Below are positions 10,611-32,711 of a stretch of 64,000 nucleotides of DNA, piece by piece. A model generated the notes under the pieces. The model saw nothing but the letters and a program-made list of their open reading frames with translations, was not told the DNA's origin and did no database searches. Position 1 is the first letter of the stretch, and each line of letters opens with the position of its first letter. The stretch is from NCBI RefSeq assembly GCF_012726195.1, contig NZ_JAASAF010000007.1, forward strand, positions 62,001-126,000, read 5' to 3'. The position numbers were made by a program, and so were the translations under genes. The stretch comes from Rhodococcus sp. HNM0563 (GTDB lineage: Bacteria; Actinomycetota; Actinomycetes; Mycobacteriales; Mycobacteriaceae).

Positions 10611-10637
10611 TTCGGTGTTTTCCATCCGTTGTCGAAG

Positions 10638-11051
10638 TTACCGGGCCGCACGGGTCGCGATCTCGTCCGCGCGGAGTGTTGCAGCGGAGGTTCCTGCTAT
10701 GGACCAATTCTCCGGATCGACCTCGATGATCCGACCACGGACCGGTTCCTTCGTCGATCCCAGGATCTCGACGATCAGGTTCGTGAATCGGGCAGCGAGT
10801 TCCTGCCGCTGCTCGACGGGACGTCCGGCGAGGACAACGGCGGTGAAATAGGGTGCCGCAACACCACCGTCAGAGACGATGGTGCCGGCTGTAGCGACGT
10901 CCTCGGGTGAATATCGGACGATGAACATCCGTACCCGATCCATCGGAGCGCCGAGAACCTCCGCATATGCGCGGCTTGCCTCGATCAGCAGACGGCGATG
11001 CTGGTCTGACGTGTATACACCATCGACGAGGTGGAAATGGGCTACCGGCAT
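10638..11051 (-). CDS. Tautomerase-superfamily protein, long form (cis-CaaD-like)
   Basis: A 137-residue protein starting Met-Pro-Val, so the mature protein would carry the catalytic Pro-1 of the tautomerase superfamily. It is twice the length of the 4-OT at 2152 and resembles the trimeric cis-3-chloroacrylate dehalogenase/MSAD-type group, which fuse two beta-alpha-beta units. Arg residues in DQHRRLLIEASR and VRMFIVRYSP could serve the active site. GAGGAG precedes the ATG. It is encoded 30 bases after the SDR gene on the same strand. A role in isomerising alkyl-substituted pathway intermediates is possible; a hydratase/dehalogenase role cannot be excluded. Confidence 0.7.
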   Translation of the reverse strand: MPVAHFHLVDGVYTSDQHRRLLIEASRAYAEVLGAPMDRVRMFIVRYSPEDVATAGTIVSDGGVAAPYFTAVVLAGRPVEQRQELAARFTNLIVEILGSTKEPVRGRIIEVDPENWSIAGTSAATLRADEIATRAAR

Positions 11052-11081
11052 GAAAACTCCTCGAGTGGTCGACTGTTCGAA

Positions 11082-11837: not shown

Positions 11838-11862
11838 GGAGTGCTCCTCTGTGAGACAACGA

Positions 11863-11895
11863 CGCGGCCGACGCGGTGTCTTCGCGTCGGCCGCG
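11863..11895 (-). terminator. Perfect 13-bp hairpin between the aldehyde dehydrogenase and SDR genes
   Basis: CGCGGCCGACGCG (11863-11875) pairs perfectly with 11883-11895 around a 7-base loop. Both flanking genes are on the minus strand, so the hairpin should separate the dehydrogenase-aldolase unit from the SDR-tautomerase unit or attenuate read-through. Confidence 0.75.
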
Positions 11896-11913
11896 CAGGT
11901 GCGGTCGATTCGG

Positions 11914-13392
11914 TCAGTGGCGCAGGCGCATCGTTACTGCCCGCGGCTCGGTGAAGAAGTCGCGCGAGTACTGGCCACCCTCGCGGCCGAGCCCACTGCT
12001 GCCCTCACCGCCGAACGGCAGTCGAAGGTCGCGTTCGAAGAACGTGTTGATCCACACCGTGCCGGCCTTCCATCGAGCAGCCATCCGGTGGGCTCGGTCG
12101 AGGTTCTGAGTGAACAGCATTCCCGCGAGCCCGTATGGAGAGTCGTTGGTGATGCGAAGTGCCTCGTCCTCGGTGTCGAACCCGAGGACGGTCTCGACGG
12201 GCCCGAAGATTTCTTCCCGTGCGGTGCGGGACTCGTTGGTCAAGCCCGTGATGACTGTCGGCGGGTAGTAGAAGCCCGCGGCGTGATCTGCACCGGTCAG
12301 GCGCGCTCCACCGGTGATGATCTTGCCGCCTTCTTCTTGCGCGAGCTCGACGTAGCTGTGGACCTTCTCGAGGTGCCGCTGCTCGATGAGTGGCCCGATG
12401 AAGTTCGACGGGTCCTTCGGGTCGCCGACAGTGAGCTTGCTCGCCTCCTCGGTGAAACGAGCGAGGAACTCGTCCATGATGCTGTTCTGAACGAGCAGCC
12501 GCGACCCGGACAGACATACCTGTCCGTTGCCCGCGAAGATCGCCCGGATCGACATGGGTACCGCCACATCGAGATCGGCGTCGTCGAAGATGATGTTCGC
12601 TGATTTACCGCCCATCTCCGCCGACACCGGCGTGTGGTTGGGGGCAGCGGACTGCAGGATCTTCACCCCGGTGGCGCTGGAGCCGGTGAAGGTGATCCGG
12701 TCGACCCGCGGGTCGGAGGTCAGTGGCCCGGCGACGGCCTCGCCCCCGAAACCGTGCACCACGTTGAGGACACCTTCGGGCAGGCCTGCCTCGAGCGCGA
12801 GCTCGGCGAAACGATGCGCGGTCAGCGGCGTCTGAGGTGCTGGCTTGAGGACAGTCGTGTTTCCGAAGGCCAGGGCCGGCGCTATCTTCCAGGTGGCCAG
12901 CATGAGCGGCGCGTTCCACGGGCTGATCGCCGACACTACTCCGGCAGGTGGATACAGCACATAGGAGAACAGGTCGCCATCCGGGTAGGCCTCGTTGGCT
13001 GCCAATGAGACATAGTCGGCGAAGAACCGCAAATTATGGGCAACACGGGGTATTTCGGCGTGCAGCGACTGGTTGATTCCTTTGCCGCCGTCCCGGGTTT
13101 CGAGGAGGGCGAGTTCGTCGCGGTGCTCGTCGACCTTGTCGGCGACCGCATGCAGGATCTTCGCCCGTTCCTTCGGGGACATCTGCGGCCAGGGACCTTC
13201 GTCGAACGCGGTGCGAGCCGAGGTGATCGCTGCTCTGCCATCGTCGGCGGTGCCTTTCGGGACGAGCCCGAGGAGCGAGCCATCGTGCGGGTCACGCGTT
13301 TCGAAGGTCGCGCCGTCCGAGGCTTGCTTCCATTCGCCGCCGATGAGGTGGCGGACTTCGCCGACCTGCGCTGGTCTCTGTGTCTGAGTCAT
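11914..13392 (-). CDS. 2-hydroxymuconic semialdehyde dehydrogenase (aldehyde dehydrogenase)
   Basis: A 492-residue NAD-dependent aldehyde dehydrogenase. The general-base Glu is in SAEMGGKSAN and the nucleophile Cys in GNGQVCLSGSR; the NAD site segment is FTGSSATG. The position among meta-cleavage genes and the absence of a ring-fission-product hydrolase point to oxidation of 2-hydroxymuconic (or 5-alkyl-2-hydroxymuconic) semialdehyde, as for DmpC/XylG. AGGAG precedes the ATG. It lies 21 bases downstream of the aldolase gene and is probably the last gene of that unit, which ends in a hairpin. Confidence 0.85.
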   Translation of the reverse strand: MTQTQRPAQVGEVRHLIGGEWKQASDGATFETRDPHDGSLLGLVPKGTADDGRAAITSARTAFDEGPWPQMSPKERAKILHAVADKVDEHRDELALLETRDGGKGINQSLHAEIPRVAHNLRFFADYVSLAANEAYPDGDLFSYVLYPPAGVVSAISPWNAPLMLATWKIAPALAFGNTTVLKPAPQTPLTAHRFAELALEAGLPEGVLNVVHGFGGEAVAGPLTSDPRVDRITFTGSSATGVKILQSAAPNHTPVSAEMGGKSANIIFDDADLDVAVPMSIRAIFAGNGQVCLSGSRLLVQNSIMDEFLARFTEEASKLTVGDPKDPSNFIGPLIEQRHLEKVHSYVELAQEEGGKIITGGARLTGADHAAGFYYPPTVITGLTNESRTAREEIFGPVETVLGFDTEDEALRITNDSPYGLAGMLFTQNLDRAHRMAARWKAGTVWINTFFERDLRLPFGGEGSSGLGREGGQYSRDFFTEPRAVTMRLRH

Positions 13393-13413
13393 CTCGGGAT
13401 CTCCTGGTGGGTG

Positions 13414-15563
<2,150 letters not shown>

Positions 15564-16658
15564 ATGACCGACCCGAACGCCCGCTTCGACATCGCGCACC
15601 TTGCCCGTGCAGAGCTGTTCACCCCGAAGCCGCAGGAGACCCTGGACTTCTTTACGAAGTTCCTCGGCATGTACGTCACACACCGTGAGGGACAGTCCGT
15701 CTACCTCCGTGGTTACGAGGACCCCTACCAGTGGAGCCTCAAGGTCACCGAGGCCGCCGAGTCCGGTATGGGCCACGCCGCGCTGCGGGCCAGCTCACCC
15801 GATGCGCTCGAACGCCGCGTCGCGTCGCTGAAGCAGGGAAATATCGACGGCAAGTGGACCGAGGACCAATACGGCTACGGCAAGACCTTCGAGTTCCAGT
15901 CGCCCGACGGCCACAACCTGCAGTTGCTGTGGGAAGTGGAGAAGTACAAGGCTCCGGACGAACTGCGAAGCAAGATTCTCTCGCGCCCCTCGAAGAAGCC
16001 GCTGTCGGGAATTCCGGTCAAGCGGATCGATCACCTCAACCTCATGGCCTCGGACGTGACAGCGATCAAGGATTCGTTCGAACGGCACCTCGGGTTCCGC
16101 ACCACCGAGCGCGTGGTGGACGGCAACGTCGAGATCGGGGCGTGGATGAGTTCGAACCTGCTCGGCCATGAGGTCGCGTGCATGCGCGACATGACCGGTG
16201 GACACGGCAAGCTGCACCATCTGGCCTTCTACTACGGCACCGGGCAGCACCTCGCCGATGCGGTGGAAATGTTTCGCGACTACGACATCCGAATCGAGGC
16301 CGGACCGGACAAGCACGGCATCACCCAAGGGCAGTTCCTCTATGTGTTCGAACCCGGTGGCAACCGCATCGAACTGTTCGGCGAGGCGGGATATCTTCAT
16401 CTGGATCCGGATGCGGATACCAAGACCTGGCAGATGTCCGACATCGATACCGGACTGGCGGTCGGTGGCGCGAAGCTGCCGTGGGAGACCTACTTCACCT
16501 ACGGCACGCCGAGCCCCCTCGAACTGGATCATCACATCGAGAAGTTTTCCCACTTCGGGCCGGGCACACCGGTTGAGGATCCTGATGTGATCGCGGCAGA
16601 ACAGGCGATTCCGGACGACATCGACCGCTCGCGCGCGGTCGCGGGGTCTCCGCTCTGA
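15564..16658 (+). CDS. aphC: Catechol 2,3-dioxygenase (extradiol, vicinal-oxygen-chelate type; AphC-like)
   Basis: A 364-residue type I extradiol dioxygenase made of two VOC modules. The Fe(II) ligands should be His157 (KRIDHLNLM), His219 (KLHHLAFYY) and Glu270 (NRIELFGEAG). It cleaves catechol or 4-alkylcatechol between C2 and C3 to a 2-hydroxymuconic semialdehyde. The ATG at 15564 follows AGGAG at 15554; the frame is open upstream, but without family similarity. It is the only ring-cleavage enzyme in the window and is where the agcAB and aphAB branches converge. A large hairpin follows. Confidence 0.9.
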   Translation: MTDPNARFDIAHLARAELFTPKPQETLDFFTKFLGMYVTHREGQSVYLRGYEDPYQWSLKVTEAAESGMGHAALRASSPDALERRVASLKQGNIDGKWTEDQYGYGKTFEFQSPDGHNLQLLWEVEKYKAPDELRSKILSRPSKKPLSGIPVKRIDHLNLMASDVTAIKDSFERHLGFRTTERVVDGNVEIGAWMSSNLLGHEVACMRDMTGGHGKLHHLAFYYGTGQHLADAVEMFRDYDIRIEAGPDKHGITQGQFLYVFEPGGNRIELFGEAGYLHLDPDADTKTWQMSDIDTGLAVGGAKLPWETYFTYGTPSPLELDHHIEKFSHFGPGTPVEDPDVIAAEQAIPDDIDRSRAVAGSPL

Positions 16659-17915: not shown

Positions 17916-18145
17916 TCATGCACACAGGACCAGGTCGACAGCGCGATGAGGGTCGGCGGCCAATCGCCGGCACGCCCGGGCGATGTTCGATTCCCAGCCC
18001 GACGATGAAGACCGACCACAACGTTCCTCAACGTCGCCATCACCTGCGGACCATGACCGGTGCGGACGGTGGAGCGGTCCTCATCGAACGTCACATCCCG
18101 CACGTAGTGGATCTTGTTCTCGATGTGCCAATGCCCCACGAATCC
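17916..18145 (-). pseudogene. ISAs1-family transposase, C-terminal remnant
   Basis: Minus-strand translation begins GHWHIENKIHYVRDV and continues with FDEDRSTVRTG and VMATLRN, the conserved C-terminal block of ISAs1 (H-repeat) transposases. A frameshift near 17995-18010 moves the remainder (SNIARACRRLAADPHRAV, stop at 17916) into another frame. The 5' part is missing: the remnant stops exactly where the ISL3 left end begins. The outer end of this element may be near 17873 (CAGGG), just after the lipoprotein stop. Confidence 0.75.
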
Positions 18146-18166
18146 GGCTCTTCCGAGTTAGCAGGG
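18146..18166. repeat. ISL3 left terminal inverted repeat
   Basis: Begins GGCTCTTCCGAGTTAGCAGG; about 15 of the first 21 positions match the right end at 19578-19598 read on the minus strand. Confidence 0.75.
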
Positions 18167-19477
18167 GCGGAGCTGCCTGACACTTGACGCCCGCCGAGAC
18201 TGGCGGGTGCAGGCCACCGTACCCGCCGACGTTGATTCTCCGGGTTGCGGAACCCGAACGCGATCCTGCCGACGTGCTTGACGATCCGGTTGTAGCCCTC
18301 GCTGCGGGCGTTCGACAGGCCGGTGGTGATCGCCAGGACCATCGGGTCCTGCCACGTGGTGATGGTGTTCGCGAACGCGGCGATCTCGGGCACCGAGCAG
18401 GCGGCACAGAACTCGTAGAACCGATACAACGCATCTCGAACCTCGTAGCGAAGCCCACCACGATCGGTGCACGCCAACACATCTCGAAGCAACTCCTTGA
18501 CGATCCAAGCCGCTGCGATGTCCCCGTTCGGGTCCGCGGAGGTGAGCTTGTCGAACAGGACGCGCCGCTGCTCGTCTGTGAGCCGTTCCGCGGCCCGCAG
18601 TAGCCGGCGCCGGTTGATCCACTCGACGTCGGACTTGCGGCCCCGGCGGCCTCGCCGGGTCTGGGTGATCCGCCGGCGCACCGCGTCGACCATCTCGTTG
18701 GCCTTCTTCGCCAGGTGGAAGCGGTCCACCACGACGCGGGCGTGCGGAAGAGCTTCACGGACGGCCTTCGCGTAGACGGCGGACATGTCGATGGCGACGT
18801 GGGTGATCGGGGCTTTCCAGTCCGGGTCGCACCCCGCGAACCAGTCGGTGACCACCGCCGAGGTGCGCCCGTTCACCTGCACCAACAGTCCCTGATCGCC
18901 GGAGATGTCGACCAGGCCGGTGTCCCACCGATCGACCCGCGTCCGGCGGCCGGTCTCCTCGCAGATCTCCCAGCGGGCTCGGCCGCGGCGTGTCTCGTCG
19001 ATGCCGAGGACCCGCACTGGTGCGGGAGCGACTTCAAGGACGGGGTCGGCGACCGCCACCACCGCACGATGACAGGTGTTCCACGTGCAGCCGTACGCGG
19101 CGACCGCCTGCACTGACCGATCGTCGTCGAGGACCGCCAGTGCCATCTCGGACTTCGCCCACGCTGTCACCCGTGACCGCGGTGGAATCTGCGGCACCGA
19201 CTCGGTGAACCCCCTTCCGGTCACACACGATGTTGGTGCACAACCACTTCCGCTTGCGCCACACCAGGTTCGGCCGGTCTGGACCGATCATGATGTCCCG
19301 TGGGCGGGTGCTGACCCACCTCTTCGAACGCGTCGACCGGTGCGCACACTTCGGGCACCGTCCGACCCATTGGGGTGCGGTGCGGATCTCGACCACACGG
19401 GTTCCGTCGCCATCGACACGAACGGTCTCGACGACAATGCCGTCGGGACCGAACAGCCGTGAACTACTGTTGGGCAT
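18158..19477 (-). pseudogene. ISL3-family transposase with two frameshifts
   Basis: The N-terminal zinc-ribbon part (RCPKCAHRSTRSKRW, WLCTNIVCDRKG) is in one frame. The body (FTESVPQIPPRSRV onward, with LGIDETRRGR, AIDMSAVYAKAV and NARSEGYNRIVKH giving the DDE residues) is in a second. The tail (ACTRQSRRASSVRQLRPC) is in a third. The first shift is explained by one extra C in the five-C run 19210-19214, the second by one lost base at 18211-18216. Net change is zero, and the repaired protein would have 439 residues, normal for the family. Either real decay or homopolymer errors in the assembly could explain this. Confidence 0.85.
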
Positions 19478-22556: not shown

Positions 22557-24173
22557 TCAGTGGGTGCCGGCGAGCTCCGCGCCGATGCCGGTCTCTGCCC
22601 GGACGAGCATCTCGGCGAACTTCTCGTCGTCGTGGACGCCGCGACCATGGCGCTTCTCGGCCACGAGCGAGCCGACGACACAGGCGGCCAGGCCGAGCGG
22701 CATCGTGAAGATCACCGGCAGCTGGATCGTCAAGGGCGCGGGTCCGCTGCCCATCCACAGTGCCTCGGTGAACATCAGGCTCACGACGGTCGAGATCAGC
22801 CCGGTAAGCACGCCCCACACCGCGCCGGTGCTGTTGAACCGTCGCCAGTTCAGGCTCAGGACCAGGGCGGGGAGATGGGCGCTACCGGCGACCATGAACG
22901 CCATGCCCATGAAGAACGTGATGTTGGTGTCGTCGCCGATCAGCATGGTCAGACCGATGGCGATGATGCTGAATACGACCGCGCCGTATCGGGCGATTCG
23001 CGCCTGGGCGTTCTCCTCGCGCCGCCGGTCCGCGACGTCGAGATGCTCGACGGGTTCCTTGCGGGTCAGGGCCGGCCACACATCGCGGGCGAATGTTCCT
23101 GCGGCGGAGATGACCACACCTGCGACGACGGCGATGATGGACGCGAAGGCAACCGCGGCGACGAGCGCGAGCGCGATCGAACCGCCGGTGGTGCCGATGC
23201 CGCCGCCGAGTTCGGTGACGAGGACCGGAGCGGCGAGGTTGCCGCCGGGGCCGACGAGATCGGTACCGTTCGGGCCGAGCAGCGCCGCGGCGCCGAAGCC
23301 CATCACGATGACGATGAGGTAGAACATGCTGCACAGCGCGACTGTCCAGCCGAGCGAGCGTCGTGCGGTCTGTGCCTCAGGGACGGTGAAGAACCGGATG
23401 AGGATGTGCGCCATGCCGGCGGTGCCGAGTGCGAACGCCAAGGCGTAGGAGACGAGGTTGATCGCGCTGGTCTCGCCGAAGATCAGGCCCGGTGACAGGA
23501 TGGCTTCGCCCGCAACAGCATTGTCGGTGGCGTCGCCGAGAACCTTGGGGAAGCTGAAGCCGAACTGCGCGAGAATGCCGAAGCACACGATGAGCGCGAG
23601 GACCGACAGGATCGACGACTTGATGACCTGAACCCAGGTCGTGGCGAGCATGCCGCCGACGAACACGTAGATACCCATGAGCGAACCCGCGACGATCACC
23701 GACAGCCAGAACGGGATACCGGACACCGATTCGAGCAACACGCCGGCGGCGACGAGCTGGGCGAGCAACACGAACGTGCCGGTCGCGATGGTGCTGAGCG
23801 CCACCACGACCCGCACATTGCGGGATTCGGTGCGGAAGACGAGCACGTCGGCGAGGGTGTACTTGCCGAGATTGCGCATCTTCTCAGCGAGCAGGAACAG
23901 CACCGGCAGGAAAGAGATGACGGACGTGAACAGGATGACGGTGCCGTCGACGCCCTTGGAGAAGATCAGGCCTGTGGTGCCGAGGAAGCTACCGGCGGAG
24001 ATGAACTCACCGGCGATGGCAAATCCGTTCTGCCAACTAGAGATCGAGCGGCCGGCCGCGAAGAAACCATCGGCGCTCTTGGCGCGCCGGGATGCCGCGA
24101 ACGTCACCCACAGGGTCAGTGAGATGACGGCACTGCAGATTGCGATGGCCAGGTAATCGGCGTCGCCGGTCAT
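22557..24173 (-). CDS. Solute:sodium symporter (MctC/ActP-like monocarboxylate transporter)
   Basis: A 538-residue SSS-family transporter with about 13 membrane helices. Family segments include SADGFFAAGRSISSWQNGFAIAGEF near the N-terminus, LGTAGMAHILIRFFTV and SAAGTFARDVW. Actinobacterial relatives (MctC) take up acetate, propionate or pyruvate and, as here, are encoded right after a DUF485 protein with a 4-base overlap. The gene lies opposite the six-gene CoA-ligase operon, suggesting it imports that pathway's acid (inference). Confidence 0.88.
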   Translation of the reverse strand: MTGDADYLAIAICSAVISLTLWVTFAASRRAKSADGFFAAGRSISSWQNGFAIAGEFISAGSFLGTTGLIFSKGVDGTVILFTSVISFLPVLFLLAEKMRNLGKYTLADVLVFRTESRNVRVVVALSTIATGTFVLLAQLVAAGVLLESVSGIPFWLSVIVAGSLMGIYVFVGGMLATTWVQVIKSSILSVLALIVCFGILAQFGFSFPKVLGDATDNAVAGEAILSPGLIFGETSAINLVSYALAFALGTAGMAHILIRFFTVPEAQTARRSLGWTVALCSMFYLIVIVMGFGAAALLGPNGTDLVGPGGNLAAPVLVTELGGGIGTTGGSIALALVAAVAFASIIAVVAGVVISAAGTFARDVWPALTRKEPVEHLDVADRRREENAQARIARYGAVVFSIIAIGLTMLIGDDTNITFFMGMAFMVAGSAHLPALVLSLNWRRFNSTGAVWGVLTGLISTVVSLMFTEALWMGSGPAPLTIQLPVIFTMPLGLAACVVGSLVAEKRHGRGVHDDEKFAEMLVRAETGIGAELAGTH

Positions 24174-24541
24174 GCGACGACCTCCTCGGTCTCGGGCCGG
24201 TTGTCGGCGACAGCGCGGATCGCGGCGTCGGCGGCGGGCTGAATGTAGGTGCGGGACAGTCGGAAATACGCCCATACGAGGACCCAGGTTCCAGCGAACT
24301 GGCTCAGAACCACCCAGAGCGAAAGCGGGATTCCCAGGACGGATGTGGAACCGAGTTGATCGGGGAATCCGATCCAGGCCACGAGGAAGCCCGTGAACAA
24401 CGCGATGGTGATGCCGCCGAGGGTGGTGGTGACCATCTTGCGTCGATGCCGCAGTTCGGCGACCTCGGGTAGCTGCAGCATCCGCGACCAGATCAGATCG
24501 TCCGCAGCGAAGGTGCCCTGGTTGGAGACGGTGCCGTTCAT
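24170..24541 (-). CDS. DUF485 membrane protein, symporter partner
   Basis: A 123-residue protein with two membrane helices (GGITIALFTGFLVAWIGF and LWVVLSQFAGTWVLVWAYF). DUF485 proteins accompany SSS carboxylate symporters (YjcH-ActP type). It overlaps the symporter start by 4 bases, and its own start overlaps the stop of the upstream SnoaL-like gene by 4 bases. Confidence 0.85.
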   Translation of the reverse strand: MNGTVSNQGTFAADDLIWSRMLQLPEVAELRHRRKMVTTTLGGITIALFTGFLVAWIGFPDQLGSTSVLGIPLSLWVVLSQFAGTWVLVWAYFRLSRTYIQPAADAAIRAVADNRPETEEVVA

Positions 24542-25035
24542 GCCCGCACCGCCGCCCGGCGTGCTGTGTCGAGCGCGAAGAGGTTCTCGTCCCAGCCGGC
24601 TTCGAGGGGCCCGAAGAAATGGAATCGGACCTGTTTGACGCGATAGAGCCACCGGCCGTCGATCTTGACGACCTCGTCGGTGTAGCGTCCGGCCGCGATG
24701 CTTGCCGTGCCGTCGGTGACGCACGGCTGCCACAGGAACGAGCGGACCGTGGCGCGGTCACCGTTGAGGTCGATTTCGAGGTTGGTGATGAAATGCCAGA
24801 ACGCAGTGAGGCCGCCGTCGGCAAGTCCGGCGAAGAACGTTTTCATCTCGTCCTTGCCCTTGGGATGTGATAGGCCGTCGAACTCGCCGTCCTCGGTGAA
24901 CAGGTCCATCAGGGCGTCCCAGTTTCCGTCGTCGAGATGGCGGCAGTACCGGGCATCGAGCGTGCGGATCGCCTCCAGGTCTTCGAGGCGAGTGATGCGC
25001 TCGATGAGAGAGCGATCGGATTCGGGGTTGGTCAC
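24538..25035 (-). CDS. SnoaL/NTF2-like protein
   Basis: A 165-residue cone-fold protein: IERITRLEDLEAIRTLDARYCRHLDDGNWDALMDLFTEDG is the typical SnoaL-like opening and YTDEVVKIDGRWLYRVKQVRF the closing sheet. Members act as isomerases, dehydratases, cyclases or binding proteins. The GTG start at 25035 has GGAGG 7 bases upstream. It is the first gene of the transport operon, divergent from the TetR gene, and may act on the imported acid or its CoA ester. Confidence 0.8.
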   Translation of the reverse strand: MTNPESDRSLIERITRLEDLEAIRTLDARYCRHLDDGNWDALMDLFTEDGEFDGLSHPKGKDEMKTFFAGLADGGLTAFWHFITNLEIDLNGDRATVRSFLWQPCVTDGTASIAAGRYTDEVVKIDGRWLYRVKQVRFHFFGPLEAGWDENLFALDTARRAAVRA

Positions 25036-25064
25036 GGGAGAGCCTCCGGAAGCGCTTGGATTAA

Positions 25065-25086
25065 CGCATGTTCATGTGATGCGAAC
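25065..25086. promoter_or_regulatory. Overlapping short inverted repeats in a divergent promoter
   Basis: CGCAT-N9-ATGCG (25065-25083) overlaps GTTC-N9-GAAC (25070-25086). The site is between the SnoaL-like and TetR genes and could be the TetR operator. Arms are short, so this is tentative. Confidence 0.4.
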
Positions 25087-25160: not shown

Positions 25161-25763
25161 ATGAACACGCGGTCAACTGCGACACTGTCGTCCGTCCGGG
25201 AGCGAATTCTCGAGACCGCTCTCGACGAGTTCTATGCCTCCGGATTTCACGGTGCAACCATGCGAAATATCGCGAACAGTGCAGGTTGTAGTGCTGCAAA
25301 TGTCTACAACCACTTCGAGAACAAGTCGGAACTGCTGGTCGAGATCCTGCGTCGAGCGAGCGATGAGCAGTTCACCGCGACCCGGAATGCTCTGCGGAAG
25401 GCCGGTTCGGATCCGGCGGAGAGATGGAAGGTCGCCGTCGTCGCCCATGCGCTGTTCACTGCGCGGAATCCGCGGGCCTGTCTGGTGGCCAACACGGAGC
25501 TGCGTTATCTCGACGATCTCAATCGCCGACGTGTCGTGGGGTCGCGTGACGCGCAGGAGCAATTGTTCGTCGGGATTGCGGAAGCGGCCTCCCAACAGGG
25601 GTTATTCGATCTCCCGAACGTGCATCAGGCCGTCACGGCGGTGTTGACGATGTGTGCGGGGATCCCGCTGTGGTTCCGTGCGGACGGCCCGCTCACTGCG
25701 CAGGAAGTGGCCGACGATTACGGGCGATATGCGCTCAACCTCGTGGGATACCGGAAAGCCTGA
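25161..25763 (+). CDS. TetR-family regulator of the acid-catabolic operon
   Basis: A 200-residue TetR protein: VRERILETALDEFYASGFHGATMRNIANSAGCSAANVYNHFENK is the N-terminal helix-turn-helix, and the helical ligand domain follows. I choose ATG 25161 because similarity begins there; no strong ribosome site is visible and the message may be nearly leaderless. It lies 87 bases before the six-gene operon and divergent from the transport operon, so it probably controls both, with an acyl-CoA or acid as effector (inference). Confidence 0.85.
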   Translation: MNTRSTATLSSVRERILETALDEFYASGFHGATMRNIANSAGCSAANVYNHFENKSELLVEILRRASDEQFTATRNALRKAGSDPAERWKVAVVAHALFTARNPRACLVANTELRYLDDLNRRRVVGSRDAQEQLFVGIAEAASQQGLFDLPNVHQAVTAVLTMCAGIPLWFRADGPLTAQEVADDYGRYALNLVGYRKA

Positions 25764-25850
25764 CCCCGGGACATTGACGGCCGATAGGTCTCGTGCTGTA
25801 CTGGGTGAACAAGCGTTAATGACCTACTCCGGTCCATAGAGGGAGTACCC

Positions 25851-27047
25851 ATGACTCACCGGCCGTCTCAGCCCCGCACCGATTCGCCGCGCTACTTGAC
25901 CGAAGAGCGCCTCGAGATCCGAGATCTCGCCCGCGACTTCGCGATGACGCGGGTGTTGCCCGTGGCGAACGAACTCGACCCCGTCCAGGGCACGATCCCG
26001 GATTCGCTGAAGAAGGAGATGGCCGAGATCGGCTTCTTCGGGATCATGATCCCCGAGGAGTACGGCGGCCTCGGGCTCGGCGTCTTCGAGTACTGCCTCG
26101 TCGCGGAGGAACTCTCCCGTGCATGGATGAGCGTGTCGGGTCTGCTTGCGCGCGGTAACGGTATGGGCGGTGGCTTCACGCCGGAACAGCAGGAAGCCCT
26201 GCTCCCCAAGGTCGCGCGCGGCGAATACCTCGGTGCCTACGCGCTGTCCGAGGCCGAAGCGGGTTCCGACGTTGCCAACATTTCGTGCCGAGCCGTGCGT
26301 GACGGCGACGAATGGGTCGTGAACGGCACGAAGATGTGGTGCACATACGCCGACGAGGCAGACTACATGGTGCTGTTCGCTCGTACCGACCCGAACAAGG
26401 ACCCGGCCAAGCCGCATCGCGGGATCAGCGCGTTCCTCATCGAGAAGGAGCGCGGCGGATTCCCCGACGGAATCTCGGGCACGAAGGTCCGGAAGATCGG
26501 TTACTTCGGCTGGAGCACTTGGGAATTGGCGTTCGACAACTACCGCATCCCGGCAGGCAGGATGCTCGGCGAAGAAGGCAAGGGCTTCTACCTTGCCGTA
26601 TCCGGCCTCGAAGTAGGCCGCGCCCACACCGCTGCCCGCGCGATCGGCCTGGCCCGCGCCGCGCTCGAGGACTCCATCGAATACATGCACACCCGCCGTC
26701 AGTTCGGGCGCCCCATCGGCGATTTCCAGCATCTTCGGTTCAAGATCGCCAAGATGGCCGCCGATATCGAAGCGGCCCGCCAGCTCATGTACTCGGTGGC
26801 TACCGACATCGATTCCGGACGCCGCTGCTCGCTCGAAGCGTCGATGTGCAAGCTGGTGGCAACCGAGATGGCCGAACAGGTCACGAGCGAGGCAGTGCAG
26901 ATCCACGGTGGCGCCGGTTACACCACCGACTTCCAGGTCGAAAGGCATTGGCGCGACGCCCGCCTGACGAAGATCTTCGAAGGCACCAGCGAGATCCAGA
27001 TGCGAATCATCTCGGACGAACTGCTCGGAAGGCCGGAAAAAGCATGA
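25851..27047 (+). CDS. Acyl-CoA dehydrogenase (first gene of six-gene operon)
   Basis: A 398-residue acyl-CoA dehydrogenase. FAD and substrate segments are YALSEAEAGSDVANI and IGYFGWSTWELAFDNYRIP; the catalytic Glu is in FEGTSEIQMRIISDELLG. It is not closely similar to the enzyme at 2482. GAGGGAG precedes the ATG. Its last bases overlap the next start (ATGA). It starts a chain of six genes coupled by overlaps, and probably dehydrogenates the CoA ester made by the ligase of the same operon. Confidence 0.88.
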   Translation: MTHRPSQPRTDSPRYLTEERLEIRDLARDFAMTRVLPVANELDPVQGTIPDSLKKEMAEIGFFGIMIPEEYGGLGLGVFEYCLVAEELSRAWMSVSGLLARGNGMGGGFTPEQQEALLPKVARGEYLGAYALSEAEAGSDVANISCRAVRDGDEWVVNGTKMWCTYADEADYMVLFARTDPNKDPAKPHRGISAFLIEKERGGFPDGISGTKVRKIGYFGWSTWELAFDNYRIPAGRMLGEEGKGFYLAVSGLEVGRAHTAARAIGLARAALEDSIEYMHTRRQFGRPIGDFQHLRFKIAKMAADIEAARQLMYSVATDIDSGRRCSLEASMCKLVATEMAEQVTSEAVQIHGGAGYTTDFQVERHWRDARLTKIFEGTSEIQMRIISDELLGRPEKA

Positions 27048-27790
27048 GCACCGCAATGTCCCCGAAACTTGCCGCGGTCGGCGACCGGACCGGGCCGCAG
27101 TCGTTCCTCGTGTCCGAGATCCTCTCGGCTGCCGGGGTGTCCCTGCCCGCCGGCTCCCCCGGTGTCGGTGTGACTGCCGCAGACATCGTCGTCCCCGCCG
27201 TACCCGATGCCAACCGGACGCAAGCCCAATGGAAGACGGACCGTCCAGTGGGCGTGAACGACACGGTGATCATCGAGTCCGTGATCACCCGCGTTGCCGG
27301 TGGCCGCATCGAGCGGCACATCAGGCTGCGCGACGAAGCCGGGGCGATTCTCGAGAGCGGCACCGAAACATGGATTCTCGACGACCCCGCCGCGGCCGTA
27401 TCCGCCCCGGAACTCGACTTCTGCAGCGCTGAATGGGGAAACCTTCTGAGCGACAGCCTCGAAGACGATCGGGGCTTTACCTCGTCACTGTCCACCTGGG
27501 ACGGCACGATCGGTCTGCGCTGCGGCGACAGGGAACTCCACCTCCGGGTCTACAAGGGCAACATCATCGATGTCACCCGCCGTGTCCCTCACGGCGCCAC
27601 GTTCACCTTCGTCGCACCGGCCCATACCTGGGTCGACCTCGTGCTGTCGGATGCCGACGATTTCATGCGGCGCGCGATCAGCGGTGAGTTCTCCTCCACC
27701 GGAGACGGATACGAGTACCTGAGGTTGACCAAACCGCTCAACATGATCATCGCGCATGCGCGACTCATCGCCCGGAAGGCCGACTCATGA
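27044..27790 (+). CDS. Two-part protein: hotdog-like N-terminus and SCP2-like C-terminus
   Basis: A 248-residue protein. Residues about 1-110 look like a hotdog or MaoC-like half (VGVNDTVIIESVITRVAGGRIERHIRLRDEAG). Residues about 125-245 resemble an SCP2 sterol/lipid-carrier domain (WDGTIGLRCGD, THTW-like APAHTWVDLVLSD, GEFSSTGDGYEYLRL). I infer both from pattern, not from a match to a named protein. It is translationally coupled to genes on both sides (4-base overlaps), so it is part of the pathway, perhaps as hydratase, thioesterase or acyl-CoA carrier. Confidence 0.6.
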   Translation: MSTAMSPKLAAVGDRTGPQSFLVSEILSAAGVSLPAGSPGVGVTAADIVVPAVPDANRTQAQWKTDRPVGVNDTVIIESVITRVAGGRIERHIRLRDEAGAILESGTETWILDDPAAAVSAPELDFCSAEWGNLLSDSLEDDRGFTSSLSTWDGTIGLRCGDRELHLRVYKGNIIDVTRRVPHGATFTFVAPAHTWVDLVLSDADDFMRRAISGEFSSTGDGYEYLRLTKPLNMIIAHARLIARKADS

Positions 27791-28647
27791 TCGAGGCACG
27801 TTATCTCGAAATCGATGGCGCTCTCGGCTTCGTCGAGATCGTCACACCCGACCACCTCGACGTCGAGGCATTGCCTGCGGTCCTGTGCATCCACACTGCC
27901 GGTCAGAGCGGCGTGCAGTGGCGGCACGTGTCGCGCGACCTCGCAGACCGGGGTTACCGCGTGATCGTGCCCGACCTGCCCGGTCATGGACGCTCCGAGC
28001 CTGCACCGTCCGGTCCGGTGACCAGTATCGTCGACTACGGCGACTGGCTGTGCGGCGTACTCGACGCTCTGGAGATCGAACGCCCCTACGTGATCGGTTG
28101 CTCGATCGGTGGCAAACTCACCCTCGAACTCGCAACCCGCCCCGAGCGGCCACTCTCCGGCGCGATCGCCATGGAGGCCGAAGCAGGTCCCGGTCGCGTC
28201 AACGTCAACGGTCTCCGTCGAGAACTCGAAGACGTCGCCGGTCCTGCTCGTGCCGAACGGACGTACCTGGGTACTCTTGCATCGGTGGGACGTTCGGTTC
28301 CCGAGCGCAAGGCCCACCTGATAGCGCTCATGCACAAGCGTGAAGACCCGGAGATCTCGTCGTCCGACCTGATCGGCTGGGGCACTCATGACGTGCGCGA
28401 CCGGCTGAACCAGGTCACGGCACCCTTGCATGTCGTCGCGGGCCGTGATGACCCGTGGATCAATGTCGACGAAATCGCGCGCGTCGCAGAGATCGCCAAC
28501 GAAACCACGCCCGGTCGTGCACGATTCACCGTACTGGACGGGATCGGCCACTACCCGATGGAAGAGATCGACGACTTCGCAGTACTCGTCGATACCTGGA
28601 TCAACGAATTGCAGCAGTCGGTTGTCGCCGAGGAGGTAGTGCTGTGA
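27787..28647 (+). CDS. Alpha/beta hydrolase
   Basis: A 286-residue alpha/beta-fold hydrolase. The nucleophile elbow is GCSIGG, the acid is in VVAGRDDPWI and the His in DGIGHYPMEE; the oxyanion segment is IHTAGQSG. It overlaps its neighbours by 4 bases each. Within a CoA pathway it could hydrolyse an ester or lactone substrate before activation, or a CoA thioester. No more exact prediction is possible. Confidence 0.85.
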   Translation: MIEARYLEIDGALGFVEIVTPDHLDVEALPAVLCIHTAGQSGVQWRHVSRDLADRGYRVIVPDLPGHGRSEPAPSGPVTSIVDYGDWLCGVLDALEIERPYVIGCSIGGKLTLELATRPERPLSGAIAMEAEAGPGRVNVNGLRRELEDVAGPARAERTYLGTLASVGRSVPERKAHLIALMHKREDPEISSSDLIGWGTHDVRDRLNQVTAPLHVVAGRDDPWINVDEIARVAEIANETTPGRARFTVLDGIGHYPMEEIDDFAVLVDTWINELQQSVVAEEVVL

Positions 28648-30338
28648 GCACCAGAACCGAGACTCTCTCGGCGCTACTGGACACACTCGTCTCCGAAAAC
28701 CCCGAATCGGCAATCACGTACGACGTGGTCGGCGACGACGTCATCGTCAGCAGCAGAGCCGATCTGCGCAACCGCGCCGAAGCGCTGTGCGCCGAACTCG
28801 ACGCCGTCGGAGTCCGTCCCGGCCAATGCATCGCGGTGATGCTGCCCAACTGGTCCGACGCGCTTGTCTGGCAGTTCGCCGCAGCCACGGTGGGCGCTCA
28901 CGTCATCGGTGTCAATACCCGGTACAACACCGGTGAGGTCGCCCACATCCTCACTGCTGCATGTCCGGCCGTGGTCGCCGTCCCGGCTGCATTCCACGGT
29001 TTGGACCTGTTCGGTCGCCTCGCCGAAGCCGCCGCATCTGTTCCCGATGTGGCGACCCCGGTCGTCGCGGTGGTGCACGGACCCATCGAAACCTCCACCA
29101 TCGACAGAGAATTCGATCTCGGCGGGGGATCCTGGATCGCTGGGAGCGGAGTCACGGGAGGCATCCGGGTTCCCGACACACCCGATCGGGCAACCCTCAC
29201 CGCAGCCGGAGTCGACGACGACCCCGACGACAGGCTGGCTGTCGCGTTCACGACCTCCGGCTCGACCGGTGTCCCGAAGCTCGCGGCCCACCGTCACAGC
29301 GCCATCGTGCGACACGGCCATGCCGATGCTGCGATCATGCAGGTCGGGGAGGGTGACGTGGGGCTGTGTGTTCTTCCCGTCTCCGGTGTGTTCGGCTTCA
29401 GCACCGCCATGGCGATGATCGCCGGGGGCGGAGCACTGCTCATGGAAACGGTGTTCGATCCGTCGGCGGTGCTCCGCCGCATGCGGCAGGTGAAGGTCAC
29501 CCATGCGGTGGGTGCCGACGACCTGTTCGGCCGCCTCTACGACGAGTGGCATGACGGAGAGCGAATGGATCTGTCGACCCTGAGGTGGATCGGGATCGCC
29601 GATTTCCTCGGACGATCGCACGAGATCGCACGGTGGGCGCGCGACGAGTTCGGCACGCACACCTCCGGTGTCTTCGGGTCGTCCGAGGTGTTCGCTCTCA
29701 CGATGTTGTGGAACGCAGACGACCCGGAATCGGTGCGCTGGAACGGTGGTGGCCGCGCGGTCGAGCCTGCGATCGAACTGCGTGTCGCGGATCCTCTCGA
29801 CGACACGCGGGTCGCAGACGGCGAGCAGGGTGAACTGCAGTTCCGCGGCCCCAACGTCGTCGACGCCTACCTGGGTAATCCCGAGGCTGCGGTGCGCGCC
29901 TTCACGAAGGACGGCTGGTTTCGCAGCGGCGACCTCGCTGTGGCACTGGGCGACGGCGGCTACCGTTACGTGTGCCGCATGGGCGACGTGCTGCGCCTGC
30001 GAGGGTTCCTCGTCGACCCCGCCGAAATCGAGGGTCGCCTCGCACAGCACCCGGGGGTGGGTGTCGTGAAGGTCGTCGGGATCACCGGCGACGGTGGCTA
30101 CACGCAGGCCGTCGGTTTCGTGGTACCGACGGACGATGCGCCCGCCGACACGGATGCCGAGAACCTGAAAGCTTGGTGCAAGAGCGAACTCGCCGCATTC
30201 AAGGTGCCGGCGGCCATCCATGTCATCGACCGCATGCCCACCACTGTGGGCGGGAACGGCTCGAAGATCCGGGCCGTAGAACTGCGCGAATGGGCGCAGA
30301 ACTGGACCGACCGTGAAAGGGATTTCCGTCGTGACTGA
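28644..30338 (+). CDS. AMP-forming acyl-CoA ligase
   Basis: A 564-residue member of the ANL superfamily. The phosphate loop is FTTSGSTGVPK; the hinge region is GDLAVALGDGGYRYVCRMGDVLRLRG, where the usual RxKD is R-MGDVLRLRG; the lysine near the end lies in GNGSKIRAVELR. It should activate a carboxylic acid with ATP and CoA. The GTG start overlaps the previous stop (GTGA) with AGGAGG just upstream. Substrate not deducible; neighbours suggest a short or branched acid. Confidence 0.85.
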   Translation: MSTRTETLSALLDTLVSENPESAITYDVVGDDVIVSSRADLRNRAEALCAELDAVGVRPGQCIAVMLPNWSDALVWQFAAATVGAHVIGVNTRYNTGEVAHILTAACPAVVAVPAAFHGLDLFGRLAEAAASVPDVATPVVAVVHGPIETSTIDREFDLGGGSWIAGSGVTGGIRVPDTPDRATLTAAGVDDDPDDRLAVAFTTSGSTGVPKLAAHRHSAIVRHGHADAAIMQVGEGDVGLCVLPVSGVFGFSTAMAMIAGGGALLMETVFDPSAVLRRMRQVKVTHAVGADDLFGRLYDEWHDGERMDLSTLRWIGIADFLGRSHEIARWARDEFGTHTSGVFGSSEVFALTMLWNADDPESVRWNGGGRAVEPAIELRVADPLDDTRVADGEQGELQFRGPNVVDAYLGNPEAAVRAFTKDGWFRSGDLAVALGDGGYRYVCRMGDVLRLRGFLVDPAEIEGRLAQHPGVGVVKVVGITGDGGYTQAVGFVVPTDDAPADTDAENLKAWCKSELAAFKVPAAIHVIDRMPTTVGGNGSKIRAVELREWAQNWTDRERDFRRD

Positions 30339-31560
30339 TTCCAACGCGAACGATGTGGTGATCTGCGAGCCACTGCGTACCCCCGTCGGTCGCTACGGCG
30401 GCATGTACATCGACGTGCCCGCCACCGACCTGGCCGCGCGTGTCATCTCGGAGTTACTGTCGCGCACAGCGCTCGACCCCGGGAAGATCGACGATGTCAT
30501 CTTCGGCCAGTGCTATCCCAACGGTGAGGCACCCGCGATCGGTCGTGTGGCGGCACTCGATGCGGGCCTGCCCGTCACCGTCCCCGGTCTGCAACTCGAC
30601 CGTCGATGCGGTTCCGGTCTGCAGGCGGTGCTCGATGCCGCGATGCGCGTGCAGACCGGGGTCGCCGACATCGTCATCGCCGGCGGAGTCGAATCGATGA
30701 GCCGCTCCGAGTACTACACCGAATCGATGCGCTGGGGAGCGAAGGGTGCGCCCGCCGCGTTGCACGACCGCCTCGCCCGCGGCCGTGTCACCGCCGGTGG
30801 CCGCAACTATCCGGTGCCCGGTGGCATGCTCGAAACCGCCGAGAACTTGCGGCGGAAGTACGACATCCCCCGCCTAGAACAAGACGAACTGGCTGTCGAA
30901 TCGCACCGCCGTGCCGTTGCCGCGATCGAATCGGGGAAGTTCGCCGACGAGATCGTGTCCGTGCAGGTGCCGCAGCGCAAGGGTGATCCGAAGACGATCG
31001 ACCGCGACGAGCACCCGCGCGCCGACACCACCGTCGAGACGCTCGCGAAGCTCCGCCCGATCATGGGCAAGCAGGATCCCGACGCCACCGTCACTGCGGG
31101 CAACGCCAGCGGGCAGAACGACGGTGCCGCAGCCTGCATCGTGACCAACCGCGCGACCGCGGACCGGCTCGGTCTGCGCCCGCTGGGCAAGCTCGTCACA
31201 TGGGCTGCCGCCGGAGTGGCGCCCGCCGAGATGGGCATCGGCCCGGTGCCGTCCACCGCGAAAGCACTCGATCGTGCGGGACTGAACCTGTCGGATATCG
31301 ACCTCATCGAACTCAACGAGGCATTCGCCGCACAGGCCCTCGCCGTGACGCGCGAATGGAAGTTCACCGCAGCAGATTTCGAGCGCACCAACGTCAACGG
31401 ATCCGGGATCTCCCTCGGTCACCCTGTCGGCGCGACCGGCGTGCGGATCCTCGCGACGATGCTGCGTGAACTCGATCGTCGCGGCGCGCGCTACGGCCTC
31501 GAGACGATGTGCATCGGCGGTGGTCAGGGCCTGACCGCGATCTTCGAGCGGGTCGCGTGA
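30331..31560 (+). CDS. Thiolase (acetyl-CoA C-acyltransferase type)
   Basis: A 409-residue degradative-type thiolase. The acyl-accepting Cys93 is in RRCGSGLQAV, the His in GHPVGATG, and the second Cys in MCIGGGQG; NEAFAAQAL is also present. I choose the GTG at 30331, which follows AAAGGG and overlaps the ligase stop by 8 bases, over the GTG at 30313. It would cleave a 3-oxoacyl-CoA from this operon's pathway, although a dedicated hydroxyacyl-CoA dehydrogenase is not encoded here. Confidence 0.9.
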   Translation: MTDSNANDVVICEPLRTPVGRYGGMYIDVPATDLAARVISELLSRTALDPGKIDDVIFGQCYPNGEAPAIGRVAALDAGLPVTVPGLQLDRRCGSGLQAVLDAAMRVQTGVADIVIAGGVESMSRSEYYTESMRWGAKGAPAALHDRLARGRVTAGGRNYPVPGGMLETAENLRRKYDIPRLEQDELAVESHRRAVAAIESGKFADEIVSVQVPQRKGDPKTIDRDEHPRADTTVETLAKLRPIMGKQDPDATVTAGNASGQNDGAAACIVTNRATADRLGLRPLGKLVTWAAAGVAPAEMGIGPVPSTAKALDRAGLNLSDIDLIELNEAFAAQALAVTREWKFTAADFERTNVNGSGISLGHPVGATGVRILATMLRELDRRGARYGLETMCIGGGQGLTAIFERVA

Positions 31561-32711
31561 CCGTGCGGCCGTTGGACGGCGTCCGCGTAATCGATCTGTC
31601 CAGCTTCGTCGCCGGGCCGACGGCAGGCCGGATGCTCGCCGAACTCGGCGCCGACGTCATTCGCGTCGACCCGGTCGGCGGTGCCGTCGACGGAGGCCGC
31701 TGGCCAGTGACCGAGAACGGCGCGAGCCTGTACTGGACGGGGCTGAATCAGGCGAAACGTTCGATCGCGGTGGATCTGCGCAGCGACGAGGATCGCGCCC
31801 GCGTCATCGAATTGATCGCCGACGCAGGCATCGTCCTCGAGAACGCGGCGCACGCCCCGTGGCTCGCCCACGATGTGCTCCTCGCGCATCGGCCGGACCT
31901 GATCCACGTGCATATCGCGGGCAATGCGGACGGCACCCCGGCGGTCGACTACACCGTCAACGCTGCCGCGGGCATCCCGCTGATGACGGGCCCGACCGGT
32001 CTCGGTGCACCGGTCAACCATGTGCTGCCCGCGTGGGATCTGCTCACCGGCGTGCATGCCGCACTCGGCATCGTCACCGCGCTGCGTCGCCGTGAACAGA
32101 CCGGCGAGGGAGCGTATCTCGAACTCGCGCTCGACGACGTCGCACATGCTGCGGTCGCGAGCATGGGCTGGCTTGCAGAAGCTCAGGCACGTGGGTCGGG
32201 GCGTGAGTTGCAGGGCAACGCCCTGTACGGCAGCTACGGTTCCGAGTTCGCAACCGCAGACGGCCGCTACGTCATGATCGTCGGTCTGACTCGTGGACAG
32301 TGGCGGGCGCTTGTCGAGGTCACCGGCACCGGAGCGGTGTTCGACGCGCTCGGTGCGCAGCGCGGGCTCGACTTCGATCTCGAGGGCGACCGCTATGCGG
32401 CGCGCGAGGCGATCACCGCAATCCTTGCACCCTGGTTTTCGCGACGAACCCTCGCTCGAATCGAAGCGGACCTCGCGGGCACGCGGGTGTTGTGGGCGCC
32501 GTACCGCACGATGGACGAAGTGGCCGCAGATCTCGCCGCCCGCCCCGACTCGGTGGTGCAGTACATCGATCAGCCGGATATCGGCCCTGTGCTCACCGCG
32601 CGGTCTCCGTTGCGCTGGAACGGCCGGTACACCGATGCGCGTCCAGCACCTCGGCACGGGGAGCACACCGCCGAGGTGCTCGGAGCAGGTCAGCTGCCGG
32701 GCGCTCGATAG
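31557..32711 (+). CDS. Family III CoA transferase resembling 2-methylfumaryl-CoA isomerase (Mct)
   Basis: A 384-residue CaiB/BaiF protein. It resembles mesaconyl-C1-CoA/C4-CoA isomerase (Mct) more than formyl-CoA transferase, in segments such as VDYTVNAAAGIPLMTGP, GAPVNHVLPAWDLLTG, GNALYGSYGSEFATADGRYVM and WAPYRTMDE. Mct moves CoA between the two carboxylates of a methyl-branched unsaturated diacid. The resemblance is from memory and needs a search. GTG start in a GTGA overlap; last gene of the operon, ending 22 bases inside the convergent GYD-domain gene. Confidence 0.75.
   Translation: MTVRPLDGVRVIDLSSFVAGPTAGRMLAELGADVIRVDPVGGAVDGGRWPVTENGASLYWTGLNQAKRSIAVDLRSDEDRARVIELIADAGIVLENAAHAPWLAHDVLLAHRPDLIHVHIAGNADGTPAVDYTVNAAAGIPLMTGPTGLGAPVNHVLPAWDLLTGVHAALGIVTALRRREQTGEGAYLELALDDVAHAAVASMGWLAEAQARGSGRELQGNALYGSYGSEFATADGRYVMIVGLTRGQWRALVEVTGTGAVFDALGAQRGLDFDLEGDRYAAREAITAILAPWFSRRTLARIEADLAGTRVLWAPYRTMDEVAADLAARPDSVVQYIDQPDIGPVLTARSPLRWNGRYTDARPAPRHGEHTAEVLGAGQLPGAR

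Follow-up and report, generated by a model that had tools for sequence, protein, structure and literature searches.

The window, a stretch of 64,000 nucleotides (C51:62001-126000) from the 5.54-Mb genome of Rhodococcus sp. HNM0563, whose best protein match was to Rhodococcus sp. SJ-2 (96%), contains two divergent operons and an adjoining TetR-type regulatory gene that are considered here as candidate genes of a CoA-dependent degradation pathway. The forward-strand operon comprises six genes that are coupled by overlaps of 4, 4, 4, 8 and 4 bp and specify an acyl-CoA dehydrogenase (25851..27047; PF00441, PF02770, PF02771), an apparently degenerate MaoC hotdog and SCP2 domain protein (27044..27790; recognized by fold prediction and by its MaoC-SCP2 relatives), an alpha/beta hydrolase (27787..28647; PF00561), an AMP-forming acyl-CoA ligase of 59.9 kDa (28644..30338; PF00501, PRK06164), a thiolase (30331..31560; PRK06205) and an Mct-like family III CoA transferase (31557..32711; TIGR04253). 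The operon is preceded on the same strand by the gene of a TetR-family regulator of the TetR_C_24 type (25161..25763; PF17932, PF00440). The divergent reverse-strand operon, likewise coupled by 4-bp overlaps, encodes a SnoaL_4/NTF2-fold protein (24538..25035; PF13577), a DUF485 membrane protein regarded as symporter partner (24170..24541; PF04341; 4-bp overlap on each side) and, at its end, an SSS-family sodium:solute (carboxylate) symporter (22557..24173; PF00474, 227 bits). An earlier note made from the sequence alone had described six genes joined by 4-8-base overlaps with an upstream TetR gene and a divergent carboxylate symporter operon; coordinates, overlaps and both neighbours were reproduced.

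Relatives of the block were collected by searching a single genome of each species with a MaoC-SCP2 protein alignment, which yielded 47 loci (L054-L100), a set that possibly omits records of the window's own genome. Genes for the hydrolase and the ligase are present in all 47 loci and a TetR gene in 46. The 24 loci of the Rhodococcus type (L054-L077, from Rhodococcus, Gordonia, Prescottella and Williamsia) share the invariant order SnoaL / TetR - dehydrogenase - MaoC-SCP2 protein - hydrolase - ligase, with an acyl-CoA dehydrogenase that is 89-97% identical in all 24, an added thiolase gene in 22 (the exceptions being L059 and L076) and a detected SSS symporter of 75-98% identity in 19. Two loci are truncated, since L054 ends with its contig within the thiolase gene and L097 ends shortly past the ligase gene. 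The identical ten-gene order occurs in eight of the 47 loci, from Rhodococcus and Prescottella (L056, L057, L058, L060, L066, L072, L075 and L077), and in six further relatives; because of this recurrence the arrangement cannot be attributed to chance. An Mct-like gene is part of the operon in 12 loci, namely these eight together with L078, L080, L081 and L083. Minimal modules from Pseudonocardia and Actinomycetospora (L079, L082, L085, L087-L089 and L092-L096) consist of genes for an MFS transporter, a TetR regulator (none detected in L096), an intact MaoC-SCP2 protein, the hydrolase and the ligase. A plasmid collection contained one distant ligase relative (45%), from Sinorhizobium.

The imperfect palindrome TNAACRNNYGTTNA is present once in each of the gaps flanking the TetR gene, as TTAACGCATGTTCA between the SnoaL and TetR genes (25061..25074) and as TGAACAAGCGTTAA between the TetR and acyl-CoA dehydrogenase genes (25806..25819). 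Genome-wide only four sites match TNAACRNNYGTTNA (two when the pattern is reversed), and the copies flanking the TetR gene account for two of the four. Two perfect copies occupy the same two gaps in all 24 Rhodococcus-type loci, and in each of the 22 other TetR-bearing loci one or more copies with a single mismatch lie no further than 1.5 kb from the TetR gene; many of the one-mismatch copies outside the Rhodococcus group read NGAACGNNCGTTCN, and some are located at the TetR gene start. Since two conserved palindromes flank its gene, the TetR protein probably controls both divergent operons, and it would do so through two operators, presumably as a repressor that responds to a sensed ligand. 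The remaining two perfect matches (C12:609008-609021 and C22:50806-50819) were not tied to this pathway, the gene surroundings having been inspected at C12:609008 only.

Database models defined the enzymes of the operon to different degrees. The thiolase exceeded the PRK06205 cut-off (717 bits, cut-off 551), scored 390.5 bits with the PcaF model (cut-off 597) and is 69% identical to the thiolase of the genome's own pca cluster, which itself lies under the PcaF cut-off (418 bits). The ligase reached 643.6 bits with PRK06164 (cut-off 677). The best NCBIfam model of the hydrolase was PcaDC (72 bits, cut-off 390), with PcaD in third place (59 bits, cut-off 256), and the protein is 29% identical to the genome's own PcaD over 198 aa. 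The solved relatives of the acyl-CoA dehydrogenase (best 292 bits, FadE3 290, 6es9 277 and 8ciw 220 bits) did not pick out a single substrate; 8ciw is named as a methylsuccinyl-CoA dehydrogenase, and 6es9 is presumably of the same type. The isomerase, hydrolase and ligase roles proposed below are based on gene neighbourhood and chemical logic.

The Mct-like CoA transferase and its genomic partners

The last gene of the operon encodes a protein of the family III fold (PF02515, 226.3 bits, cut-off 23.3) that matched TIGR04253 (2-methylfumaryl-CoA isomerase) with 361.1 bits, under the equivalog cut-off of 725, and the runner-up model with 128 bits; owing to the score below that cut-off, the protein is labelled Mct-like instead of Mct. 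Among solved structures two Mct chains scored 346 and 342 bits and the next structure 101 bits. The identity to Roseiflexus Mct (7xkg) is 48% over 367 aligned residues, and the second chain, 8apq, is an Mct by entry name. The catalytic Asp165 and the substrate-binding Arg47 of Mct are kept as D161 and R48, and so are the CoA-pocket residues Arg75, Asn100 and Arg314 (roles according to PMC9196870). The RWP motif bearing the Arg47 equivalent is present in the window protein, in all 18 sampled homologues, in a paralogue and in both Mct chains, and it occurs with that arginine neither in 4ed9 nor in any of the eight other family III proteins inspected (15 in the genome). A tree of 27 rows separated 25 Mct-like rows, both solved Mct proteins included, from two outgroup rows with a support of 100/100, the inside of the Mct-like clade being poorly resolved. 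When nine outgroup rows with long branches were included instead, four of these fell next to Mct, which was taken as a long-branch artefact. The name Mct-like, already chosen in the earlier note, is thus borne out by models, solved structures and tree, which together rule out an ordinary formyl-CoA or carnitine transferase; the phylogenetic grouping with such enzymes, named in that note as one half of the refuting result, did not occur. We propose that the Mct-like enzyme interconverts mesaconyl-C1-CoA and mesaconyl-C4-CoA.

The paralogous Mct-like gene of the same genome (G000:C51:6195-9826, L034) specifies a protein of 51% identity to that of the operon. It adjoins two genes for acyl-CoA dehydrogenases, and genes resembling those of thiolases and ligases are located in the vicinity. 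Mct-like genes without the rest of the operon were found across the order.

Two additional genes, designated c21 and c28, trail the Mct-like gene on the same strand in four of the 12 Mct-bearing loci, from Prescottella agglutinans (L066), Rhodococcus (L072 and L075) and Saccharopolyspora rectivirgula (L081). The c21 protein is of the HpcH/HpaI type, and its best NCBIfam model is RipC, a C-C lyase of itaconate degradation (194 bits, cut-off 375). At the limits applied, neither Pfam nor NCBIfam provided a model that matched the c28 protein; its similarity to Rv0216 (2bi0, 423 bits) identifies it as a double-hotdog protein, and it scored 84 bits with the beta-methylmalyl-CoA dehydratase 8hgn and 69 bits with the MaoC-domain dehydratase 4e3e. 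Counterparts of both genes are adjacent in the window genome (C12:575131-576965; 63% and 70% identity), unlinked to the operon. Genes for an acyl-CoA dehydrogenase and a GntR-like protein are located divergently from this CitE-like/Rv0216-like pair (G000:C12:573735-576971, L110:7736-10972).

A co-occurrence scan of 151 related genomes (E <= 1e-60) detected the Mct-like gene in 50 genomes, c28 in 42 and both in 37. Accordingly, c28 is present in 37 of the 50 genomes with an Mct-like gene compared with five of the 101 without (Fisher p = 7e-19, relatedness not corrected). In five genomes no more than 131 bp separate the two genes, which share a strand in G023, G036, G065 and G081 and are on opposite strands in G101; in G089 they are spaced by a c21-sized interval. 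These gene associations are good evidence that the Mct-like enzymes of these genomes act on mesaconyl-CoA, and they suggest that the Rv0216-like proteins may represent a mesaconyl-C4-CoA hydratase. A branched dicarboxylate intermediate, as expected in the earlier note, is supported by the grouping with Mct and by the citramalyl-CoA lyase-like and Rv0216-like neighbours in the relatives.

The MaoC-SCP2 protein and the SnoaL gene

The second protein of the operon matched no Pfam or NCBIfam model, and some of its relatives carry recognisable MaoC and SCP2 domains. Its AlphaFold model (pLDDT 90.9) retrieved the SCP2 structure 2cx7 and hotdog R-hydratases such as PhaJ1 and HadAB in Foldseek searches. 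MaoC-type R-specific enoyl-CoA hydratases use a catalytic aspartate and histidine within a GDxxPxH loop. A GDxHPLH-like loop is kept in Amycolatopsis, Streptomyces and other relatives and is deleted in the window protein. The earlier description as a hotdog-SCP2-like protein consequently holds for the predicted folds and has to be amended in that the protein seems to be what is left of a MaoC-SCP2 fusion after loss of the hydratase residues.

The loop was sought by pattern, read by eye in eight pattern failures from outside the Rhodococcus group and then aligned in all 47 loci. Both the aspartate and the final histidine are missing from 28 loci, and the other 19 have retained the two residues. 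Gaps account for the loss in all 24 loci of the Rhodococcus type (L070 has a single stray residue) and in L083 and L090, and substitutions account for it in L081 and L086, whereas in L097-L099 the catalytic pair is kept and two residues between are changed. A SnoaL gene is present near the TetR gene in 31 loci, which include all 28 residue-lost loci compared with three of the 19 residue-kept ones, i.e. L078, L080 and L100 (Fisher p = 6e-10, relatedness not corrected; L084, L095 and L097, with little upstream sequence, were scored as SnoaL-less). According to a tree of the hydrolase and ligase proteins, the residue loss needs at least two changes, or three losses if it is irreversible, and L084 with its loop kept is nested with L083 and L090, in which the loop is gone. 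Despite the catalytic loss in the MaoC half, the SCP2 half is strongly conserved. Among proteins of known structure, BaiE and a putative scytalone dehydratase are relatives of the SnoaL protein.

The simplest reading of this distribution is that the SnoaL protein would perform the MaoC step. A more far-reaching model, which we put forward only tentatively, is an active-site hand-over in a catabolic complex, in which SnoaL and MaoC would be unrelated catalysts of the same double-bond shift in methylmuconolactone-CoA and the SCP2 domain would hold the lactone-CoA for the ligase and the hydrolase, so that a lactone metabolism proceeding entirely via CoA esters would be linked to the mesaconyl-CoA steps with which the 3-hydroxypropionate cycle ends.

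A candidate route for methylmuconolactone

The genomic neighbourhoods provided a further indication of the substrate. In Amycolatopsis tucumanensis (L078), one strand carries the genes PheA2-PheA1-CatA-CatB followed by those for an MFS transporter, the MaoC-SCP2 protein, hydrolase, ligase, thiolase, Mct-like enzyme (TIGR04253, 392.3 bits) and dehydrogenase, with genes for a PcaR/PcaU-type regulator, a TetR regulator and a SnoaL protein alongside. CatA (catechol 1,2-dioxygenase; TIGR02438, 423.8 bits) and CatB (muconate cycloisomerase; TIGR02534, 486.3 bits) are over the cut-offs of their models, PheA1 is an HpaB-type phenol hydroxylase under its cut-off and PheA2 is a flavin reductase. The same gene set was found in A. 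deserti (L080). Homologues of the phenol hydroxylase and catechol 1,2-dioxygenase occur together in eight of the 47 loci in four arrangements (L061, L067-L070, L078, L080 and L086), corresponding to approximately four independent cases, since L067-L070 as well as L078 and L080 are close relatives. In L075 a phenol hydroxylase gene follows c28 at the locus end, and L064 and L071 stop short of the phe/cat region. Within the window genome, the cut-offs of the CatA and CatB models were exceeded only at C51:139101-141188, where catC, benzoate dioxygenase and second phenol hydroxylase genes are also located, and pcaD, pcaIJ and thiolase genes are present at about C51:159-164 kb.

A meta-cleavage gene cluster lies near the operon (window 573-2152 and 8449-16658). 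It includes genes for an HpaB-type phenol hydroxylase and flavin reductase (8449-10566), a catechol 2,3-dioxygenase-like protein (15564-16658; TIGR03211, 285 bits, cut-off 320), aldehyde dehydrogenases, an HMGL-type aldolase and DmpE/DmpH-like proteins. Genes for a cytochrome P450 and a ferredoxin/reductase-like protein, the latter identified by translation, are situated beside it (4996-7242), and a transposase-like reading frame, also identified by translation, lies between the cluster and the operon (18091-19477).

Gene content, coupling, conservation, palindromes, residues and neighbourhoods were read from the sequence; all of the reactions, the nature of the inducer and the sign of regulation are what we infer. 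Because c21 and c28 trail the Mct-like gene in relatives and the phe/cat genes precede the block in two Amycolatopsis species, the substrate is most likely a methylmuconolactone derived from 4-methylcatechol, and it is probable that the block represents the lower section of a modified 3-oxoadipate pathway that depends on CoA and degrades 4-methylcatechol formed from p-cresol or p-toluate. Methylmuconolactone would be produced by the catechol 1,2-dioxygenase and muconate cycloisomerase encoded elsewhere on the same contig, with the SSS symporter as a possible additional importer. The ligase, as a putative methylmuconolactone-CoA synthetase, would convert it with CoA to the lactone-CoA, and the SnoaL protein, or the MaoC active site in other genera, would move the ring double bond as a lactone-CoA isomerase to give the enol-lactone. 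Ring opening by the hydrolase, the proposed (methyl)enol-lactone-CoA hydrolase, would yield 4-methyl-3-oxoadipyl-CoA, from which the thiolase would release acetyl-CoA and methylsuccinyl-C1-CoA, HOOC-CH2-CH(CH3)-CO-SCoA. The acyl-CoA dehydrogenase would then act as a methylsuccinyl-C1-CoA dehydrogenase to form mesaconyl-C1-CoA, which the Mct-like enzyme would rearrange to mesaconyl-C4-CoA. Finally, the Rv0216-like hydratase (c28) would form citramalyl-CoA and the RipC/CitE-like lyase (c21) would cleave it to pyruvate and acetyl-CoA, the respective genes being in the operon in some relatives and at C12:575-577 kb in the window genome. Because of the methyl position, 4-methylcatechol would yield the C1 ester and require the Mct-like enzyme, whereas 3-methylcatechol would yield the C4 ester. 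Since the operon lacks a gene for a 3-hydroxyacyl-CoA dehydrogenase and its MaoC-SCP2 protein lacks the active site, the keto group must originate by another route, and opening of the lactone, which would supply it, explains the presence of a hydrolase gene in an operon without such a dehydrogenase.

The same features make beta-oxidation of a methyl-branched aliphatic diacid unlikely. In that case 3-methyladipate, for instance, originating from cyclic terpenoids or branched alkanes, would be degraded by the ligase, a dehydrogenase, a hydratase and the thiolase to methylsuccinyl-CoA and enter the same mesaconyl-CoA ending, with the hydrolase opening a lactone made earlier. The end product and the need for the Mct-like enzyme would be identical, the ligase, acyl-CoA dehydrogenase and thiolase are enzymes of beta-oxidation, and the MaoC fold is present; however, the operon contains no hydroxyacyl-CoA dehydrogenase gene, the clade of the window has lost the MaoC residues, and phenol hydroxylase, CatA and CatB genes occur in some neighbourhoods. 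Equally improbable is another ring-cleavage acid as the substrate, i.e. muconolactone, 2-methylmuconolactone from 3-methylcatechol or a longer alkyl-muconolactone, with the Mct-like enzyme used in some strains only. The core of TetR, MaoC-SCP2, hydrolase and ligase genes without those for the dehydrogenase, thiolase and Mct-like enzyme in Pseudonocardia and Actinomycetospora would fit such a substrate, and on chemical grounds 2-methylmuconolactone would yield methylsuccinyl-C4-CoA, for which Mct is not needed, but the operons that combine the Mct-like, lyase and hydratase genes indicate the C1 ester, and the genome already possesses catABC along with pcaD, pcaIJ and thiolase genes for the unsubstituted route. 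Import of a free C5 diacid (itaconate, mesaconate or methylsuccinate) by the symporter and its activation by the ligase or the family III enzyme, to which the Mct-like, lyase-like, hydratase and carboxylate symporter-like genes might point, is very unlikely, as it would leave the thiolase and the hydrolase without a role, the core is widespread without any C5 enzyme, and the phe/cat neighbours would be unaccounted for.

Several observations weigh against the assignment to 4-methylcatechol degradation. The phe/cat genes of the window genome are not adjacent to the operon, lying about 45 kb away, and the phenol hydroxylase-like gene of the window itself belongs to the meta-cleavage cluster. The transferase scores far under its equivalog cut-off, as noted, and differs from Mct at Phe101, Arg104, Ser132 and Glu133; the hydrolase and the ligase are under every equivalog cut-off shown. 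No copy of the palindrome with up to one mismatch was present in 19.9 kb around the C12 lyase/hydratase pair. Furthermore, the Mct-like gene is absent from 35 of the 47 fetched stretches (two of which, L054 and L097, stop at the end of a contig), the loci without an operon-borne copy including those of Gordonia and the R. jostii/opacus group, and in Pseudonocardia and Actinomycetospora the thiolase, dehydrogenase and Mct-like genes are all missing from the fetched stretch. Seven genomes of the same genus (G002, G004, G006, G009, G011, G014 and G017) contain the ligase gene and a single Mct-like gene sited apart, whose product is 49-51% identical to that of the window and might stand in for the operon copy. 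The MmlI family (PF09448) matched none of the 151 genomes, and none of 14 control genomes matched either. R. opacus 1CP possesses an isomerase that shifts the methyl group of 4-methylmuconolactone (PMC4321380), its p-cresol transcriptome was obtained with a mutant using meta cleavage, and the operon is not named in the accessible main text of that study (PMC13101518).

The earlier note knew of no named pathway with this set of genes, a statement that no longer stands, since the modified 3-oxoadipate (mml) pathway fits in a CoA-ligase form that ends via mesaconyl-CoA. In two Ralstonia (Cupriavidus) strains the mml route leads to methylsuccinyl-CoA and acetyl-CoA and uses a CoA transferase (PMC6449761). 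Methylmuconolactone isomerisation, enol-lactone hydrolysis, a CoA ester and thiolysis are common to the Cupriavidus pathway and the chemistry proposed here. By comparison with the description in PMC6449761, an ATP-dependent ligase takes the place of the CoA transferase MmlFG, the SnoaL and MaoC-SCP2 proteins are proposed in place of MmlI/MmlJ, a TetR regulator is found instead of the LysR-type MmlR, and the block includes genes for steps beyond methylsuccinyl-CoA. As the AMP-forming ligase replaces MmlFG, the block is regarded as an mml-like variant and not as a member of the mml group.

Other known systems share parts of the proposed ending. Roseiflexus-type Mct belongs to the same clade as the transferase and shares Asp165 and Arg47, whereas the CoA pocket is partly changed here and the CO2-fixing setting of Mct is replaced by a degradative one. 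The itaconate/methylsuccinate cluster of pseudomonads has a methylsuccinyl-CoA dehydrogenase followed by mesaconyl- and citramalyl-CoA steps in common with the block but, according to the accessible text, no ligase, thiolase or lactone part; it needs no Mct because its itaconate CoA transferase makes C4 esters, and methylsuccinyl-C1-CoA is a dead end for C. necator (PMC12290011). ThnP of anaerobic naphthalene degradation likewise transfers CoA intramolecularly between two carboxylates and is encoded beside acyl-CoA dehydrogenases, although it is a family I transferase acting on an alicyclic diacid (PMC11659651), in contrast to the family III enzyme of the operon.

For rhodococci, 3-methylmuconolactone is a growth substrate of R. 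opacus 1CP, and the paper reporting this cites methyl-isomerase work on nocardioform actinomycetes (PMC4321380). The same strain degrades p-cresol via ortho cleavage, the steps past 3-methylmuconate cycloisomerase having 'remained speculative', and its PheA1(3)/CatA2 cluster is upregulated by phenol in wild-type cells and by p-cresol in a triple mutant (PMC13101518). Beside this cluster the paper has a row for a 'putative 2-hydroxy-6-oxononadienedioate hydrolase', up on styrene and, in the mutant, on p-cresol, which might correspond to the operon. The open-access literature, with subscription papers mostly outside its range and therefore short of proof, yielded no paper assigning genes to a methylmuconolactone-CoA route in actinobacteria. 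Work by Cha, Cain and Bruce in 1998 on R. rhodochrous N75 reportedly found that 3-methylmuconolactone is activated with CoA before butenolide hydrolysis by a synthetase with a subunit of approximately 62 kDa, a size to be compared with the 59.9 kDa of the operon ligase; no gene was named for this synthetase in the literature search.

Rhodococci are known from biochemical work to degrade p-cresol and p-toluate by ortho cleavage, and the block would provide candidate genes for the entire lower part of this route, including the fate of methylsuccinyl-CoA. Since the thiolase would make the C1 ester, the route also accounts for the presence of an Mct-like enzyme. The adjacency of Mct-like and Rv0216-like genes in five genomes offers a lead to the function of Rv0216, and the least expected result is the pattern of SnoaL and MaoC, an apparent replacement of the active site of one enzyme by an unrelated protein.

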